Assembly: GCA_017399005.1 (NCBI GenBank)
Contig: JAFQEO010000035.1
Span: 1 to 64,000 of the forward strand
Source: Peptococcaceae bacterium
GTDB lineage: Bacteria; Bacillota; Peptococcia; Peptococcales; Peptococcaceae
Length of the DNA: 64,000 bases
Reading direction: 5' to 3'
Part shown: piece by piece, positions 55,451-62,949 of the stretch
Layout: the number at the start of each line of letters is the position of its first letter
Position numbering within the stretch: the first letter of the stretch is position 1
Program-made: the position numbers and the translations under genes
The notes under the pieces: generated by a model
Told to the model about the DNA's origin: nothing
The model's input: only the letters and a program-made list of their open reading frames with translations
Database searches by the model: none

Positions 55451-55481
55451 AAACAGGTGCAGATATCCTGCACCTGACCAT

Positions 55482-55553
55482 ATCCCCTTAGTTAAATGGA
55501 TATAACAAGCCCCTCCTAAGGGCTAGTTGCGGGTTCGATTCCCACAGGGGGTG
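55482..55553 (+). tRNA. tRNA-Arg (anticodon CCU)
   Basis: All cloverleaf arms can be drawn: acceptor ATCCCCT (55482-55488) with AGGGGGT (55546-55552, one U-G pair); D stem GTTA/TAAC; anticodon stem AGCCC/GGGCT with loop CTCCTAA and anticodon CCT at 55515-55517; a four-base variable loop; T stem GCGGG/CCCAC with loop TTCGATT. The T stem has one C-A mismatch. The discriminator is G and CCA is not encoded. Confidence 0.93.
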
Positions 55554-55558
55554 TATAA

Positions 55559-55597
55559 GCCGGAAACTCTGATATATGCAGGGTTTTCGGCGTTTTT
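55559..55597 (+). terminator. Terminator of the tRNA-Arg gene
   Basis: GCCGGAAACTCTG pairs with CAGGGTTTTCGGC (two G-U pairs), followed by GTTTTT. Confidence 0.9.
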
Positions 55598-55669: not shown

Positions 55670-55698
55670 TTGACAGGAATGAAATTAAGCGATAGAAT
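55670..55698 (+). promoter_or_regulatory. Promoter of gatCAB
   Basis: TTGACA (55670-55675), a 17-base spacer and TAGAAT (55693-55698). The predicted transcript start is near 55705, at the foot of the leader hairpin. Confidence 0.85.
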
Positions 55699-55706
55699 AA
55701 CAATCA

Positions 55707-55758
55707 TAGAGGCAAAGGTGTCTTTAAGTTTAAAACTTAAAGGTACCTTTGCCTTTTT
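55707..55758 (+). promoter_or_regulatory. ANTAR-type conditional terminator in the gatCAB leader
   Basis: Two mutually exclusive folds share the same bases. Antiterminator P1: TAGAGGC (55707-55713), hexaloop AAAGGT (55714-55719), GTCTTTA (55720-55726), with A1 and G4 of the loop as required by ANTAR proteins. Terminator: 20-base arms 55710-55729 and 55735-55754, fully paired if two adjacent G-U/U-G pairs are allowed, then a T-run to 55758. The gatC start is 72 bases further on. ANTAR recognition is inferred from the loop rule and the nearby regulator gene. Confidence 0.78.
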
Positions 55759-55830
55759 CTGCTTTTAAACAGAAATGCATAGTTTATATTGTAAGAAAAC
55801 GGAAAACCAGAAAAGATTGGAGTGTGAGTT

Positions 55831-56112
55831 ATGATTAGTAGAGAAGTTGTAGAAACTGTTGCAAAGCTGAGTCGTTTGTATCTGGAAGAAGATGAAATTG
55901 TGCTGTATGCGCAGCAGTTGAGTCAGATTTTAGACACAATAGAGGAATTACGACAAATTGATACTGATAATGTAGAGCCTCTGGCACATGTGATGCCTGT
56001 TGAAAATGTATTTCGTGAAGATATGGCTGGTGAATGCTTCCGTCAGGAAAAAGTGCTGGCAAATACAACGGAACAAATGGATGGAATGTTTCAGGTACCA
56101 AAAATTGTTTAG
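55831..56112 (+). CDS. gatC: Glu-tRNA(Gln)/Asp-tRNA(Asn) amidotransferase subunit C
   Basis: A 93-residue subunit that clamps GatA and GatB together. It shows VAKLSRLYLEEDEI, the ILDTIEELRQIDTDNVEPLAHV core and the acidic FREDMAGEC tail typical of GatC. TTGGAGTGTGAG upstream of the ATG is a modest ribosome site. It is the first gene behind the conditional terminator at 55707-55758, so the whole gatCAB unit would be under that control. Confidence 0.93.
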   Translation: MISREVVETVAKLSRLYLEEDEIVLYAQQLSQILDTIEELRQIDTDNVEPLAHVMPVENVFREDMAGECFRQEKVLANTTEQMDGMFQVPKIV

Positions 56113-56124
56113 GAGGAATGCAAA

Positions 56125-57591
56125 GTGACAATATCCAGATTAACGATTCATGAGCTGCATGAGTTATTAATAAAAAAGGAAATCAGTGCCACAGAACTGA
56201 CGAAAGAGCATCTTGACCGTATTCGCCGTTTGGACAGTAATGTGAAAGCTTATATTACGGTAACCGATGAACTGGCACTGAAACAGGCGGAAGCTGTTGA
56301 TAAAAAGCTGGCTGCAGGCGAAAAAATCGGTATGCTTGCCGGGATTCCAATGTCAGTGAAAGATAATCTGTGTACAGAAGGGATTCAGACTTCCTGCGCA
56401 TCCAGAATGCTGGAAGGGTTTAAACCGCAGTATAATGCAACGGTTTTAGAAAAATTGAAAGCCGAAGATTTTGTAATGCTGGGTAAAGTGAATATGGATG
56501 AATTTGCGATGGGCTCTACTACAGAAAACTCTGCGTTCTTTCATACCCGGAATCCATGGAATCCAGATTGTGTACCGGGTGGTTCAAGCGGTGGCTCTGC
56601 TGCTTCGGTGGCAGCCGATCTGGCTGTGTATTCCCTGGGCTCCGACACGGGTGGTTCTATTCGTCAGCCAGCAGCTTTTTGCGGTGTTATAGGATTGAAA
56701 CCGACTTACGGAGCGGTATCCCGATTCGGTCTGATTGCATTTGCATCTTCTTTAGACCAGATTGGGCCGTTGGCGAAAGATGTAACAGATATAGCACTCA
56801 TTATGAATGCCATATCTGGCTATGATAAAAAAGATTCCACTTCTGCAAATTGTAATTATCCAGATTACACAGCATCATTAAATAAAAGTATAAAAGGTAT
56901 GCGTATCGGACTTCCAAAAGAATATTTAGGGGAAGGCATTGATTCAGATGTAGAGGCGCAAGTGCTTGCTGCAGCTTCTAAACTGGAGGATTTAGGGGCA
57001 CATGTCGAGGAATGTTCTCTGCCTCATACTCGTTATGCCATGCCGGCTTACTATCTGATTGCACCGGCAGAAGCGAGCTCTAATCTGGGTCGTTATGATG
57101 GTGTGCGTTATGGTTTGCGTGTGCAGGCAAAGGATGTAGCCAGCATGTTCTGTGAAACAAGGAAGCAGGGTTTTGGGCCGGAAGTAAAACGTCGTATTAT
57201 GCTGGGAACCTATGCATTAAGTTCAGGGTATTATGATGCTTATTATCTGAAAGCACTAAAAGTTCGAAATCTGGTTAAACAGGATTACGATAAAGCTTTT
57301 ACACAGTATGACTGTCTGATTACGCCAACCGCACCGACAACTGCTTTGCGTAAAGGGAATAATCAAAACCCGCTGACTCTGTATAAAAGCGATATTTGTA
57401 CCATTCCGACCAATCTTGCCGGGATTCCAGGGCTATCTCTTCCGTATGGCGTAGATAGAAACGGTATGCCAATTGGTGTGCAATTATTAGGGAAAGCTTT
57501 TACAGAACCAGCTTTGCTGCAAGTTGCATATTCGCTGGAACAGAATACAAGTTTGACTAGACTGAAACCAAATCAGGGAAAGGGGATATAA
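56125..57591 (+). CDS. gatA: Glu-tRNA(Gln)/Asp-tRNA(Asn) amidotransferase subunit A
   Basis: A 488-residue amidase-signature enzyme that hydrolyses glutamine and supplies ammonia to GatB. The Ser-cisSer-Lys triad is visible: Lys79 in SVKDNLC, the middle Ser in PGGSSGGSAAS (about 150-160) and the nucleophile Ser in SDTGGSIRQPA (near 178). The start is GTG behind AGGAGG, 12 bases after gatC. Confidence 0.96.
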   Translation: MTISRLTIHELHELLIKKEISATELTKEHLDRIRRLDSNVKAYITVTDELALKQAEAVDKKLAAGEKIGMLAGIPMSVKDNLCTEGIQTSCASRMLEGFKPQYNATVLEKLKAEDFVMLGKVNMDEFAMGSTTENSAFFHTRNPWNPDCVPGGSSGGSAASVAADLAVYSLGSDTGGSIRQPAAFCGVIGLKPTYGAVSRFGLIAFASSLDQIGPLAKDVTDIALIMNAISGYDKKDSTSANCNYPDYTASLNKSIKGMRIGLPKEYLGEGIDSDVEAQVLAAASKLEDLGAHVEECSLPHTRYAMPAYYLIAPAEASSNLGRYDGVRYGLRVQAKDVASMFCETRKQGFGPEVKRRIMLGTYALSSGYYDAYYLKALKVRNLVKQDYDKAFTQYDCLITPTAPTTALRKGNNQNPLTLYKSDICTIPTNLAGIPGLSLPYGVDRNGMPIGVQLLGKAFTEPALLQVAYSLEQNTSLTRLKPNQGKGI

Positions 57592-57597
57592 CCAACA

Positions 57598-59043
57598 ATG
57601 GATTATGAAGTGGTAATTGGATGTGAAGTTCATGTTGAATTAAAAACAAAAACAAAAATCTTTTGCAGTTGCCCGACTGATTTCGGAGGTGAACCAAATA
57701 CCCATGTATGTCCTGTTTGTTTAGGATTGCCAGGTACGCTGCCAGTATTAAATAAAAAAGTACTGGAATATGCTATTAAAGCAGGTCTGGCACTAAATTG
57801 TGAAATTGCTCAGTTCAGCAAATTTGACCGGAAAAACTATTTTTATCCGGATTTAACAAAAGCCTATCAGATATCCCAGTTTGATTTGCCAATCTGTAAG
57901 AATGGTTACATTGATATCGAAACAGACAAAGGAAAAAAGAGAATTGGTATCACTCGGATTCATATGGAGGAAGATGCTGGTAAGCTAGTGCATCAGGGTA
58001 ATACTATTACAACATCTGCCGGTTCTTTAGTGGATTATAACCGGGCAGGTGTACCATTGATTGAAATTGTATCAGAACCGGATATGCGAAGTGCTGAAGA
58101 AGTAGTAGAATTTTTAAACAGTCTGAAAGCGATTATTGAATATACTGGTGTTTCTGATGCTCGCATGGAACAGGGTTCACTGCGCTGTGATGTTAATCTG
58201 TCATTGCGTCCTGTGGGGCAGATTGAATTTGGTACTCGTGCTGAAATCAAGAATCTGAACTCATTCCGTTCGGTAGAGCGTGTAATACAATATGAAATCG
58301 ATCGTCAGGTTGACATTCTTGAAAGCGGTGGCAAAGTGATTCAGGAAACCCGTACATGGGATGAGAGCAAGGGAAGAACATACAGTTTACGAAGCAAAGA
58401 AGATTCTGATGAATATCGCTATTTTCCTGAGCCTGATCTGCCGCCAGTTATTGTAATGGAAGATTATATTGAAAAATTGCGTGCTGAATTACCTGAAATG
58501 CCTAAAGAAAAACGGAGGCGTATGATTGAGAAAGACGGTCTTCCAGAATATGATGCTGGTATTATTACTGCCAGCAAAGCCCTGGTTGACTTTTACGATG
58601 CGGTGCATACGCATTATGGCGATGCAAAAAAAATCAGCAACTGGATTATGGGGGAACTGCTGGCAAAAGTAAATGCCGAAGGCATCGAACTGAATGCTTT
58701 GAAAATTCAGCCGGAACAGATGGCAGCTTTGCTAAAACTGGTTGATTCCGGTGAAATCAGCGGCAAAATTGCGAAAAAAGTGTTTGCAGAAATGTTTGAA
58801 ACCGGAAATAATCCAGGTGATATCATAAAAAAACAGGGGCTCATGCAGATTTCCGACGAAACAGCGTTAAAAACTATGATAGAGCAGGTTGTAGAAACAA
58901 ATCCAAAATCAGTGGAGGACTACAAGGCAGGAAAAACAAAAGCTCTGGGTTTTCTGGTAGGCCAGATTATGAAGCAGTCCAGAGGGCAGGCAAACCCTGC
59001 GGTAATTAACAGACTGCTGGTTGAAAAATTAAACAGTATGTAA
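57598..59043 (+). CDS. gatB: Glu-tRNA(Gln)/Asp-tRNA(Asn) amidotransferase subunit B
   Basis: A 481-residue kinase-like subunit that phosphorylates and amidates the mis-acylated t[36 protein letters not shown] (zinc cysteines), [18 protein letters not shown] and YFPEPDLPP are hallmark segments; the C-terminal YqeY-like tail binds tRNA. It follows gatA by six bases. A convergent terminator separates it from the ANTAR gene. Confidence 0.96.
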
Positions 59044-59081: not shown

Positions 59082-59129
59082 AAATAACACTTTCGAAATC
59101 AATTTAGTTTGTTTACGAAAGTGTTATTT
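59082..59129. terminator. Bidirectional terminator between gatB and the ANTAR regulator
   Basis: AAATAACACTTTCG (59082-59095) and CGAAAGTGTTATTT (59116-59129) pair perfectly over 14 bases. The minus-strand stop codon of the ANTAR gene lies at the base of this stem. Confidence 0.85.
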
Positions 59130-59724
59130 ATTTGGTACGATTCTGGTAGGTTTCGATAAGCTGCTGTGCGATTGTTTTTCGTGAAACGCAGTGATCCATA
59201 GCCTGCTTTTCGATATAGCGATGCGCTTCCGGTTCGGTCATGTTTTCTTTTTCAATTAAAAGCCATTTAGCACGGTTGATTAGTCGTATTTCCTCCATTT
59301 TTTCTTCGATAGACAACGTTTTCTTTTCAAATCGGCGAAGCCGTTCTCTAGCGCTTTCCATCCATTTTAGGGCAGTTGTTATTGTGGAACGGGATGTCGG
59401 TTTTGATAAGGTAAAAACACCATGCTGAACGAGACGACTATGTGCCTCCTCATAGATTTCATTCCTTACAAAAAGGAGAGCAACAGCGTTTCCCGATGCA
59501 CAGATATCGATAGCAAAATGAAGTCCCGCATCATCAGGCAAAGGTGTATTGATAATGATAAAGTCGTATGCTCGTTCCAGTACTTTCTGTTTAGCGGAGC
59601 TGACACTTGCAGCGGTATGTACCGGTTCGTATCTTCCTTCCGGGAGGAGTTCAAGCAGGGAATGGCTGAAAGATTCAGCGGATGAAACCAGAAGGATACT
59701 ATAGACCTGTTCCTGTAAATGCAT
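59128..59724 (-). CDS. ANTAR-domain RNA-binding antiterminator with degenerate receiver (NitR-like)
   Basis: A 198-residue regulator. Residues 1 to about 125 have the response-regulator fold, but the usual acidic pair reads SS (14-15) and the phosphorylated aspartate is replaced by Asn59 (IIINTPLPDDAG), so ordinary phosphorylation is unlikely. Residues about 128-190 form a helical ANTAR domain (RAKWLLIEKENMTEPEAHRYIEKQAM), which in characterised proteins binds leader hairpins with A1/G4 hexaloops and prevents termination. It lies 68 bases downstream of glnA, as NitR does in Clostridium saccharobutylicum. It is the obvious candidate regulator for the three leaders at 55707, 61189 and 62111. 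Confidence 0.88.
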   Translation of the reverse strand: MHLQEQVYSILLVSSAESFSHSLLELLPEGRYEPVHTAASVSSAKQKVLERAYDFIIINTPLPDDAGLHFAIDICASGNAVALLFVRNEIYEEAHSRLVQHGVFTLSKPTSRSTITTALKWMESARERLRRFEKKTLSIEEKMEEIRLINRAKWLLIEKENMTEPEAHRYIEKQAMDHCVSRKTIAQQLIETYQNRTK

Positions 59725-59792: not shown

Positions 59793-61004
59793 TCAGTTTT
59801 TGCAATAAATATCCAGAATAGCTTTTGGAATAATTTTTTTGATAAAGGCACTTTGCGCTGCAAGGCTGCGTGCACTTTCCAGATCCTGCGGAAGTTTCTG
59901 ATACATGGCTAATGTTTTGCTGTCAGCTTTATATAAATTCACATCGGCTGGAGCAGGGAGTGCCAGTTTGTTCTGAACGCCGTGGAGACCGGCATGAATC
60001 AGAAGCGCGAATGCCAGATACGGATTAGCGGCTGGATCTGGCGAGCGAAGTTCTGCCCGTCGATATTCGCCGACTGCTGCCGGAATACGTACAAGCTGGG
60101 AACGGTTTTCACTAGACCATGAAATATAACCCGGAGCTTTATTGCTTCCAAATCGCTCATAAGAATTTTCCGTATGGTTTAGAAAAACTGTCATGTCGGA
60201 AATTTTGTCGAGAATACCGGCAATCATTGGTTGCAAGTAATCGTTACCGTCATTTGCTTTCAAAGACATATTGATATGGAAACCGCTTCCCGGTTTTCCG
60301 GCAATCGGTTTAGGGCTGAAGTCGGCATGCAAACCGTTCTTATGTGCAACGGTTTTTACAATACTCTGGAATGTGATAACATTATCAGCAGCACTCAGCG
60401 CATCAGAGTAGCGGAAATCGATTTCATTCTGTCCTGGCCCTTCCTCATGGTGTGAACTTTCCGGGCGAATACCCATCTGTTCCAGGGTAAGACAGATTTC
60501 ACGGCGAATATTTTCCCCTTTATCTTCCGGTGCTACATCCATATAGCCGGCCTTGTCATAAGGAAAAGAAGTAGGTGTACCGTTTTCATCCAGCCGGAAA
60601 AGATAAAATTCCTGTTCGGCACCGAATGAAAAGCATAGTCCAGCCTGTTCTGCAGTATGGATTGCTTCTTTCAGCAAAGTGCGAGTGTCACATTCAAATG
60701 GTGTTCCATCTGGATAGGAAATGCTGCAGAACATACGAACAACACGGCCATGTTCAGGGCGCCAGGGGAGCATCATTAATGTTTCTGCATCGGGATGGAG
60801 CAGCAAATCCGAGCGGTATTCATCGCCGAATCCTGCAATTGCTGAAGCATCAATTGCAATGCCGTATGTAAAAGCGCGGGGCAGTTCCTGCGGCATAATG
60901 GAGATATTTTTCTGTTTCCCAAACACATCGCAAAAAGCCAGACGGATAAATTTTACATCTTCTTCTTCCACAAATTGCATAACTTCCTGCTGGGAATACT
61001 TCAT
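59793..61004 (-). CDS. glnA: Glutamine synthetase, short type I
   Basis: A 403-residue enzyme making glutamine from glutamate and ammonia. EVKF-like N-terminus (EEEDVKFIRLAFCDVFG), FGAEQEFYLF, HHEEGPGQNEIDF, GSGFHINMSL, NRSQLVRIPA and RRAELRSPDPAANPYL carry the metal, ATP and glutamate sites. It is about 40 residues shorter than typical GSI-alpha, with the loss toward the C-terminus, and no adenylylation-site tyrosine region is evident. ATG at 61004 follows CAGGTGAT; an in-frame TTG/ATG farther upstream lacks a site. It forms a unit with the ANTAR gene. Confidence 0.93.
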   Translation of the reverse strand: MKYSQQEVMQFVEEEDVKFIRLAFCDVFGKQKNISIMPQELPRAFTYGIAIDASAIAGFGDEYRSDLLLHPDAETLMMLPWRPEHGRVVRMFCSISYPDGTPFECDTRTLLKEAIHTAEQAGLCFSFGAEQEFYLFRLDENGTPTSFPYDKAGYMDVAPEDKGENIRREICLTLEQMGIRPESSHHEEGPGQNEIDFRYSDALSAADNVITFQSIVKTVAHKNGLHADFSPKPIAGKPGSGFHINMSLKANDGNDYLQPMIAGILDKISDMTVFLNHTENSYERFGSNKAPGYISWSSENRSQLVRIPAAVGEYRRAELRSPDPAANPYLAFALLIHAGLHGVQNKLALPAPADVNLYKADSKTLAMYQKLPQDLESARSLAAQSAFIKKIIPKAILDIYCKN

Positions 61005-61065
61005 AACAATCACCTGCTTTATAAAAATAATAGACAATACTAGCAAACTTTATTTTTAAAATGTG

Positions 61066-61094
61066 ATTATACAGCAAATTTTTCGGGCTGTCTA
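61066..61094 (-). promoter_or_regulatory. Promoter of glnA and the ANTAR regulator
   Basis: Minus-strand TAGACA (61089-61094), a 17-base spacer and TATAAT (61066-61071). The leader of about 55 bases has no terminator-like hairpin, unlike the divergent nadE leader. Confidence 0.75.
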
Positions 61095-61151: not shown

Positions 61152-61180
61152 TTGACAGAATGAAAACTTCGCTGTAAAAT
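61152..61180 (+). promoter_or_regulatory. Promoter of nadE
   Basis: TTGACA (61152-61157), a 17-base spacer and TAAAAT (61175-61180). Confidence 0.85.
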
Positions 61181-61188
61181 AACGCGCA

Positions 61189-61243
61189 TAGAGGCAAAGA
61201 TGTCTTTAAGGTATAAATCCTTAGAGATATCTTTGCCTTTTTT
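61189..61243 (+). promoter_or_regulatory. ANTAR-type conditional terminator in the nadE leader
   Basis: P1: TAGAGGC (61189-61195), hexaloop AAAGAT (61196-61201), GTCTTTA (61202-61208). The competing terminator has arms 61192-61211 and 61219-61238, paired throughout if G-U pairs are allowed, and a T-run to 61243. The spacing from the -10 (61175-61180) to P1 is eight bases, the same as in the gatCAB leader. A further 8-bp inverted repeat TTACAGCA/TGCTGTAA lies at 61245-61265. Confidence 0.78.
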
Positions 61244-61328
61244 ATTACAGCATGATTTGCTGTAATAGGATAGATACATTCATGAACTATCAACAGGAAA
61301 ACAGATGAAAAAAGAATGAGGGATGAAT

Positions 61329-62078
61329 ATGTTTGATGTGGAAAAGGTGACGCAGGATTGTATTATATGGATTCGAAAATTTTTTGAGGAAAACGGACAG
61401 GGGTGCAGAGCCGTAATAGGAATTTCCGGAGGGAAAGACAGTTCTGTTACTGCAGCCCTGTGCGTGGAGGCACTTGGAAAGGAACGTGTACTTGGCGTTC
61501 TGATGCCTTGCGGTGTTCAACCGGACATTGATATGGCATATCGACTGGTAAATCATTTAGAAATTTCTTATTATGAAATCAATATAGAAGAAGCCGTACA
61601 GGCTGTTGTAAAAAGTATTAGTTGTTTACCTAAACTATCAGAACAGACCAGAATCAATCTTCCTGCCAGAGTACGAATGGCAACATTGTATGCGGTATCG
61701 CAGAGCATGAATGGAAGAGTTGCAAATACCTGCAATCTGTCCGAAGACTGGGTGGGCTATGCAACCCGATATGGTGATGGTGCGGGAGATTTCAGTCCTC
61801 TATGCAATCTGACAGTTTCTGAAATTCGCCAAATTGGTCATTTTTTAGAGCTTCCTGGGGAACTTGTCGAAAAGACACCTGTTGACGGTCTGTGCGGAAA
61901 AACCGATGAGCAGAAACTTGGATTTACTTATCAGGAACTTGATGATTATATCAGGACTGGAATTATTCATAATTCAGAAACAAAAGCACGAATTGATCTG
62001 CTGCATTATAAAAACCGGTTTAAAACTGAGCCAATACCGGGATTTCCATATGACGCAGGAGGAGAATCTTTGTCTTGA
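61329..62078 (+). CDS. nadE: NH3-dependent NAD+ synthetase
   Basis: A 249-residue ATP-pyrophosphatase amidating deamido-NAD with ammonia. The PP-loop GISGGKDSS is at 31-39; NLSEDWVGYATRYGDGAGDFSPL and PVDGLCGKTDEQKLGFTYQELD are typical. There is no glutaminase domain, so it depends on free ammonia, which makes nitrogen-status control plausible. ATG at 61329 is preferred because GAGGG lies six bases upstream; the ATG at 61323 abuts that site. The -35 of the purC promoter overlaps its stop. Confidence 0.93.
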   Translation: MFDVEKVTQDCIIWIRKFFEENGQGCRAVIGISGGKDSSVTAALCVEALGKERVLGVLMPCGVQPDIDMAYRLVNHLEISYYEINIEEAVQAVVKSISCLPKLSEQTRINLPARVRMATLYAVSQSMNGRVANTCNLSEDWVGYATRYGDGAGDFSPLCNLTVSEIRQIGHFLELPGELVEKTPVDGLCGKTDEQKLGFTYQELDDYIRTGIIHNSETKARIDLLHYKNRFKTEPIPGFPYDAGGESLS

Positions 62079-62103
62079 CGAAAGAATCAGATTGGTGTAA
62101 TAT
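62075..62103 (+). promoter_or_regulatory. Promoter of purC
   Basis: TTGACG (62075-62080), a 17-base spacer and TAATAT (62098-62103). The -35 overlaps the nadE stop codon. Confidence 0.8.
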
Positions 62104-62110
62104 AATTGTG

Positions 62111-62165
62111 TTAAAGGCAAAGGCGTCTTTAAGGATAAAACCTTAAAGGCGCCTTTGCCTTTTTT
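62111..62165 (+). promoter_or_regulatory. ANTAR-type conditional terminator in the purC leader
   Basis: P1: TTAAAGGC (62111-62118), hexaloop AAAGGC (62119-62124), GTCTTTAA (62125-62132), an 8-bp stem with one G-U. The terminator has arms 62115-62134 and 62141-62160 (one G-U pair) around ATAAAA, then a T-run to 62165. The start codon of purC is 67 bases downstream. Confidence 0.78.
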
Positions 62166-62232
62166 GTATGCATTTGTATGTATGTGATACCAGAAAACTG
62201 TATCACAATGAATCAGACTGGAGGTAGTGATA

Positions 62233-62949
62233 ATGAACAAAATGGAACTGCTTTATGAAGGAAAAGCAAAAAAAGTTTATGCGACCCGGCATCCGGAACG
62301 GCTGGTTGTGTCTTACAAAGACGATGCAACAGCGTTTAACGGACAAAAGAAAGGCTCTATTTCCGGTAAAGGGATTATTAATAATCAGATGAGCAATCGA
62401 TTAATGCAGTATCTGGAACAGAATGGAATTCCAACTCATTTTGTGGAGGAACTCAATGAACGGGAGACACTGGTCAAAAAAGTGTCAATTATCCCACTGG
62501 AGGTTATTGTGCGAAATATCGCAGCCGGCTCTTTTTCAAAACGCTATGGAGTGGAAGAAGGCTTTGTGTTTCCAGAACCGACAATTGAGTTTTCTTATAA
62601 AAACGATAGCCTGAACGATCCACTGATAAATGAATATCATGCAGTGAGTATGGATCTGGCATCACAGGAAGAAGTGGAAACAATAAAACGATATGCTTTC
62701 GCTATCAATGAACTTTTGAAAGCATTCTGGGAAACCTGCGGTATTACACTGGTTGATTTTAAACTGGAGTTTGGACGCCTTAGTGGTGGAACAGTTGTGC
62801 TGGCCGATGAAATCAGTCCGGATACCAGTCGGCTCTGGGATAGTAAAACAGGAGAAAAACTGGATAAAGACAGGTTCCGCAGAGATTTAGGCAGCGTAGA
62901 AGAAGCCTACGAAGAAGTTATGAAACGGCTTAGTGAACACTTACAGTAA
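62233..62949 (+). CDS. purC: Phosphoribosylaminoimidazole-succinocarboxamide synthase (SAICAR synthetase)
   Basis: A 238-residue enzyme joining aspartate to CAIR. LLYEGKAKKVYATRHPERLVVSYKDDATAFNG, VRNIAAGSFSKRYGVEEG and LVDFKLEFGR...LADEISPDT are the expected motifs. It is the purine step missing from the operon at 3295-15178. ATG at 62233 is chosen since GGAGGT lies seven bases upstream; a GTG at 62227 abuts it. It is followed after 24 bases by a second adenylosuccinate lyase, which uses its product. Confidence 0.95.
   Translation: MNKMELLYEGKAKKVYATRHPERLVVSYKDDATAFNGQKKGSISGKGIINNQMSNRLMQYLEQNGIPTHFVEELNERETLVKKVSIIPLEVIVRNIAAGSFSKRYGVEEGFVFPEPTIEFSYKNDSLNDPLINEYHAVSMDLASQEEVETIKRYAFAINELLKAFWETCGITLVDFKLEFGRLSGGTVVLADEISPDTSRLWDSKTGEKLDKDRFRRDLGSVEEAYEEVMKRLSEHLQ

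Follow-up and report, generated by a model that had tools for sequence, protein, structure and literature searches.

What decides whether RNA polymerase reads past the terminators that stand in front of gatCAB, nadE and purC in this gut Peptococcaceae bacterium? The window, which is the whole stretch of 64,000 nucleotides analysed here, carries three leaders in which a small hairpin, P1, overlaps an intrinsic terminator, and the initial annotation read them as a two-state ANTAR antitermination switch between P1 and the terminator. This reading is well supported, but by evidence other than the three-leader comparison on which it was argued. The hairpin that was named P1 is the one overlapping the terminator, canonically P2; the canonical upstream P1 is absent here, a point that the annotation missed. 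We keep the name P1 for the terminator-overlapping hairpin throughout.

The leaders of gatCAB, nadE and purC

The gatCAB promoter (TTGACA-17-TAGAAT, 55670..55698, + strand) lies 8 nt upstream of P1, with a predicted +1 at about 55705, and its position is conserved across homologues. P1 (55707..55726, +) pairs over 7 bp and exposes the hexaloop AAAGGT. It overlaps an intrinsic terminator of 23 bp (55708..55759, +; arms 55708-55730 and 55734-55756, with a U tract), beyond which lie gatC (55831..56112, +; Pfam GatC), gatA (56125..57591, +; Pfam Amidase) and gatB (57598..59043, +; Pfam GatB_N/GatB_Yqey). The nadE leader has the same plan, with a promoter (TTGACA-17-TAAAAT, 61152..61180, +) 8 nt upstream of P1 (61189..61208, +; hexaloop AAAGAT), a 22-bp terminator (61190..61243, +) and then nadE itself (61323..62078, +), whose 251-aa product has the NAD synthase domain only. 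So does the purC leader, where the promoter (TTGACG-17-TAATAT, 62075..62103, +) is 7 nt upstream of an 8-bp P1 (62111..62132, +; hexaloop AAAGGC), followed by a 22-bp terminator (62113..62166, +) and purC, encoding SAICAR synthetase (62227..62949, +). On the opposite strand, between gatB and the nadE leader, are the gene for an ANTAR protein with a pseudo-receiver domain, the proposed antiterminator (59128..59724, -), and directly upstream of it glnA, encoding glutamine synthetase (59793..61046, -). A promoter-like site (TAGACA-17-TATAAT, 61066..61094, -) precedes these two genes, and no hexaloop/terminator leader lies between this site and glnA.

All three hexaloops carry A1 and G4 and are closed by C-G and then G.U, and the three terminators have no mismatches over their 22-23 bp. 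The predicted folding energies of the terminators are -28.8 (gatCAB), -32.2 (nadE) and -36.9 (purC) kcal/mol, with z-scores from -7.8, the gatCAB value, to -10.6, and P1 alone comes to about -6 kcal/mol in these leaders. Three of the marks of an ANTAR attenuator, a six-base loop with A1 and G4, a hairpin exclusive with an intrinsic terminator and an ANTAR protein in the same genome, are found together. In a search of the window against Rfam, tRNA alone scored above the gathering score and no family fitted the leaders; the sub-threshold matches were chance matches to miRNA and sRNA families. Just upstream of the gatCAB promoter lies a tRNA-Arg (CCT) gene (55481-55554, +) with its own terminator-like hairpin (55559-55591, +). 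The covariance model used below also matches the opposite strand at 55708-55758, 61190-61242 and 62113-62164 (-), and these are probably mirror matches of the near-palindromic terminators.

Covariation of the two folds

The switch had been argued from the base changes among the three leaders, which were said to keep both folds intact and, for that reason, to be stronger evidence than a single terminator. The description of the leaders, their arms and their pairings is correct: standard pairs fill all 63 terminator cells that were counted and all 21 of P1. The two folds do exclude each other, and only the extent of their overlap needs correction, since in the gatCAB leader 19 of the 23 bases in the 5' arm of the terminator lie within P1, and not 17 of 20. 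The argument itself holds only trivially in the window, where P1 has no pair changed on both sides and a single one-sided difference, A-U against G.U, that every shuffle reached. In the terminator, two pairs are changed on both sides, a number reached in 63 of 500 shuffles, and they lie at P1-loop positions 5 and 6; P1 leaves these two bases unpaired in its loop, so their compensated changes say nothing about it. On the three leaders alone, the description is right and the inference from covariation is weak.

Homologous leaders were therefore collected with the ANTAR protein (59128-59724) as the query, which gave 80 Clostridia loci. A scan that required P1 pairs 1-5 found 117 elements near the ANTAR genes of these loci, 111 of them distinct, and a stem-agnostic scan recovered 111 distinct units of promoter, hexaloop and terminator, compared with none in shuffled sequence; this architecture is far from chance. 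The A1, the G4 and the closing C-G had been demanded in the search, and their invariance among the homologues reflects that selection. Covariation was assessed by an R-scape-like procedure, a G-test with APC against a null in which the inferred substitutions were redistributed along a FastTree tree. In these homologues the terminator covaries, with pair b7-t1 beyond every null value and l6-t8 at E 0.13. P1 pairs 1-5 are all paired, as the scan demanded, their letters are nearly invariant, and none reaches E 0.05 over all pairs. Counting compensatory cells in the 50-row alignment of family A gives 90 for the terminator, compared with 27.6 in shuffles, and 5 for P1, compared with 3.9. The missing P1 signal in the close family reflects a lack of power and is not counter-evidence, because the stem is nearly invariant. 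An alignment of many homologues in which the terminator covaries and P1 does not had been named as the result that would refute the switch; the close family comes near to it, and the addition of distant subfamilies takes it away.

The same promoter-hairpin-terminator unit occurs near the ANTAR genes of other subfamilies (28-45% identity) with other stems, namely TCAGC/GCTGA, ACAGC/GCTGT, TGAAC/GTTCA, CGGAC/GTCCG and AGGGC/GTCCT; across the subfamilies, the P1 stems also include AAGGC/GTCTT and TGAGC/GTTCA. The extended set was picked by the promoter, a CA..G..G loop and the terminator, and no P1 pairing was required beyond the closing C-G; even so, P1 has at least 4 bp in 125 of 127 elements picked without a stem criterion. 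Pairs a3-b3 and a4-b4 of P1 covary, with E 0.06-0.09 when every pair is considered and about 0.001 when eight are taken as a set, as do terminator pairs b7-t1, b8-t0 and l6-t8 (E < 0.02), and the top four column pairs at least 3 apart are two of the terminator and two of P1. Among 119 elements, positions a2-a5 of the P1 5' strand have 3-5 substitutions each, compared with 14-29 at a6-a8, and loop base 2 never changes. The innermost base, a1, is paired in the terminator in just 34% of elements. The extended set, in contrast to the three window leaders, thus supports both folds; for P1 the covariation counts as support and not as proof, as the 3-5 substitutions per column point to few independent stem replacements.

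A single hexaloop at the predicted transcript start

Taking a score of at least 9/12 as a promoter, we found that a promoter ends no more than 14 nt from the stem base a5 in 74 of the 97 elements that have no element upstream, compared with 3% of shuffled upstreams. The spacing from promoter to a5 is nearly always 8-12 nt in these 74, with one at 1 nt. There are 55 stand-alone elements with a promoter at P1, and in 54 of them the predicted start is at the first paired base or at most 4 nt before it.

We consider it likely that the leaders are transcription attenuators run by the glnA-linked ANTAR protein through one hexaloop. RNA polymerase would start at or a few bases from P1, which would then emerge first from the exit channel. 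If no active ANTAR protein were present, the terminator would take over the 3' strand and the loop of P1, and transcription would stop about 50 nt in. Active ANTAR protein would bind the single A1/G4 hexaloop, hold P1 closed and thus block the terminator, and the polymerase would then read into gatCAB, nadE and purC. One hexaloop would suffice for this. The protein would have to act fast, because P1 is worth about -6 kcal/mol and the terminator -29 to -37 kcal/mol.

The closest parallel is provided by the eut leaders of Enterococcus faecalis and their regulators EutV/EutW (PMC3369931, PMC8934654), which share with the present leaders the A1/G4 hexaloop, the closing C-G, a receiver-ANTAR protein, the nitrogen theme and a hairpin that forms part of an intrinsic terminator's 5' arm. 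The EutV target, however, has two hexaloops 5-12 nt apart, the first of which is an upstream recruitment hairpin outside the terminator, whereas here one hexaloop stands at the predicted +1. Both hexaloops are required for antitermination by EutV (PMC3369931, PMC8934654), so a single hexaloop would have to work differently here. In the study of the EutV structure, one hexaloop is redefined as the smallest motif that is bound, both are still required for antitermination, and the reason is raised as a question (PMC8934654).

The leaders may instead be canonical dual-hexaloop targets in which the second hexaloop was missed, either on a longer transcript that begins at an upstream promoter or in the loop of the terminator. 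In the openly licensed literature, every published ANTAR target is a dual stem-loop (PMC8164766, PMC3369931, PMC8934654), and about 20 leaders do carry two complete hexaloop-terminator units, 63-176 nt and mostly 63-90 nt apart, with a promoter before the first alone (for example L065 12743/12817, L068 11115/11193 and L138 12857/12931, all on the - strand). We nevertheless regard a missed second hexaloop as improbable. In the 64 nt upstream of the 74 promoter-adjacent elements, a scanner that had no dual-hexaloop positive control found no A1/G4 hexaloop with at least 4 bp and 2 G-C, and at 3 bp it found 4, compared with 6.1 expected. Downstream of P1, 3-bp candidates occur in 19 of the 55 stand-alone elements with a promoter at P1, scattered within the terminator hairpin, weak and not conserved in place; that they outnumber those in shuffles is no surprise, since a shuffled sequence no longer contains the terminator. 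Tandem hairpins with a linker of 2-25 nt, which published searches for ANTAR targets looked for (PMC8164766), are not the form of these elements.

Elements without a promoter are found between gdhA and glnN (L110 19400 and L108 18608, both on the - strand), which suggests attenuation inside an operon.

The ANTAR protein, its input and its targets

The source genome encodes two ANTAR proteins, and the glnA-linked one co-occurs with the element. Of 197 genomes sampled within the order that contains Agathobaculum, 40 gave a strong match to the family A covariance model, and 45 had an ANTAR orthologue at a threshold of at least 193 bits. Both were present in 38 genomes, the RNA alone in 2, the protein alone in 7 and neither in 150 (Fisher p 5e-31, for genomes that are not phylogenetically independent and a model built from loci near the ANTAR gene). 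No family A match was found in the 53 genomes that have just more distant ANTARs, and within the taxonomic class of the source organism every genome with a match above 44 bits also has the ANTAR orthologue. The seven genomes with the protein and no family A match, and the two with a match and no close orthologue, are points against the proposed control by the glnA-linked protein. One genome of that class, G002, has no family A match, but the contig with its ANTAR gene carries a family B element. Because elements in several genomes sit on contigs other than that of the ANTAR gene, action in trans is indicated.

The association clusters by phylogeny, and many elements lie close to the ANTAR gene; the attenuators could thus be run by another RNA-binding protein or by a metabolite that the RNA senses, the ANTAR gene being co-inherited through its linkage to glnA. 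This is unlikely in our judgement, considering that the A1, the G4 and the closing pair are the features shown to matter for EutV and NasR (PMC3369931), that elements also sit on contigs without the ANTAR gene, and that a known riboswitch would be larger and more complex than this RNA, which also lacks a match in Rfam. Still less probable is a DNA-level operator at +1 to +20 for a DNA-binding regulator, with the terminator as a separate feature. It would fit the location of a highly conserved block at the start point; however, 104 of 119 elements have G.U at pair 2 of P1, a combination that pairs in RNA but is not dyad-symmetric in DNA, and compensatory stem replacements, the coupling to the terminator, the promoter-less elements between genes and the co-occurrence with an RNA-binding ANTAR subfamily all speak against it. 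Plain constitutive terminators or insulators are hardly credible, for all their strength and perfect pairing, since one placed between a strong promoter and a gene would shut that gene off permanently and since the P1 5' arm is conserved though largely not needed for the terminator.

If the glnA-linked ANTAR protein is the regulator, what does it sense? Its receiver domain scores just below the Pfam cut-off and has Ser14-Ser15 in place of the acidic pair and Asn59 in place of the phospho-acceptor Asp. A pseudo-receiver is found in all 81 proteins compared, with Ser14 in 80, no acidic residue at position 15 and Asn59 in 80; Lys108 is kept in 72 of the 81, and the ANTAR region is nearly invariant (Tyr170 in 77). 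The acidic pair and the phospho-acceptor Asp of a two-component receiver are absent, which excludes phosphorylation at the usual Asp. It is likely, judging from these residues, that the receiver is switched by a ligand or a partner. In 72 of the 73 loci that allowed the check, the ANTAR gene comes immediately after glnA, and from this gene order glutamine synthetase is the natural candidate for the input, perhaps acting on the pseudo-receiver at low glutamine. Bacillus GlnR and TnrA offer an analogy for glutamine synthetase as a regulatory input.

AmiR has a pseudo-receiver as well, and its structure (1qo0) matches the ANTAR protein by sequence. EutV, in contrast to the protein here, has the phospho-acceptor Asp. 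AmiR-AmiC of Pseudomonas and NasT-NasS resemble the present case in that an ANTAR protein is controlled through a partner and not by phosphorylation; NasT is reported to be released by NasS on sensing nitrate or nitrite (PMC3795266). They differ in that the adjacent gene here is glnA, with no AmiC- or NasS-like partner, and in that the targets are assimilation and glutamine-using genes. The nearest solved relative by sequence is Rv1626 (1s8n) of Mycobacterium tuberculosis, a putative antiterminator of receiver and ANTAR domains, which in the alignment has Asp where the protein here has Asn; actinobacterial ANTAR targets are dual stem-loops (PMC8164766), unlike the single hexaloop here. In Clostridia, an ANTAR or antiterminator gene beside ammonia assimilation genes has precedents in nitR, cited in PMC4676874 as the antiterminator of ammonia assimilation in C. 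acetobutylicum, and Clo1313_2030, the ANTAR protein of the C. thermocellum ammonia-assimilation cluster. The passage on them describes no leader motif, single hexaloop or wide regulon for either.

The genes behind the elements are glnA (type I), glnN (type III glutamine synthetase), gltB-type genes (glutamate-synthase-like GATase), gdhA, gatCAB, nadE, purC, purA (adenylosuccinate synthetase), pyrG (CTP synthase), guaA (a class-I GATase reading as GuaA), glmS (GlmS-like) and asnB (asparagine synthase). Their products either synthesize or consume glutamine or ammonia, or act in nucleotide pathways in which this happens. We incline to the view that these leaders represent a widespread Clostridia class with one +1 hexaloop, a receiver not open to the usual phosphorylation, coupling to glutamine synthetase and a glutamine regulon, in which one hexaloop is sufficient. 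No single-hexaloop ANTAR target was found in the openly licensed literature, and an earlier description in subscription journals is possible. If this view is true, the sufficiency of one hexaloop in nature runs contrary to the two-hairpin rule, and a one-hexaloop family at +1 makes it testable why ANTAR proteins need two hexaloops when the dimer grips one (PMC8934654). Glutamine synthetase would also become a candidate signal source for an antiterminator that binds RNA. Because published searches required two stem-loops, they may have missed a large nitrogen regulon in gut Clostridia.

Several elements stand apart from the glnA-linked protein. G076 (L257) and G135 (L258) have typical elements, preceding an asparagine synthase gene and an adenylosuccinate-synthetase-like gene, but neither shows an ANTAR orthologue at E 1e-20, perhaps because the assembly is incomplete or the ANTAR protein has diverged. 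In two order-level relatives, family B matches adjoin a distant ANTAR gene (G013:C49:43586-43655 and G016:C168:9840-9906). The second ANTAR gene of the source genome (G000:C5:65502-66059, -) is likewise distant, at 30% identity, and near it (L232, - strand, about 5041) an A1/G4 hexaloop, CTGAC-AATGGC-GTCGG, overlaps a terminator before an HMGL-like gene.
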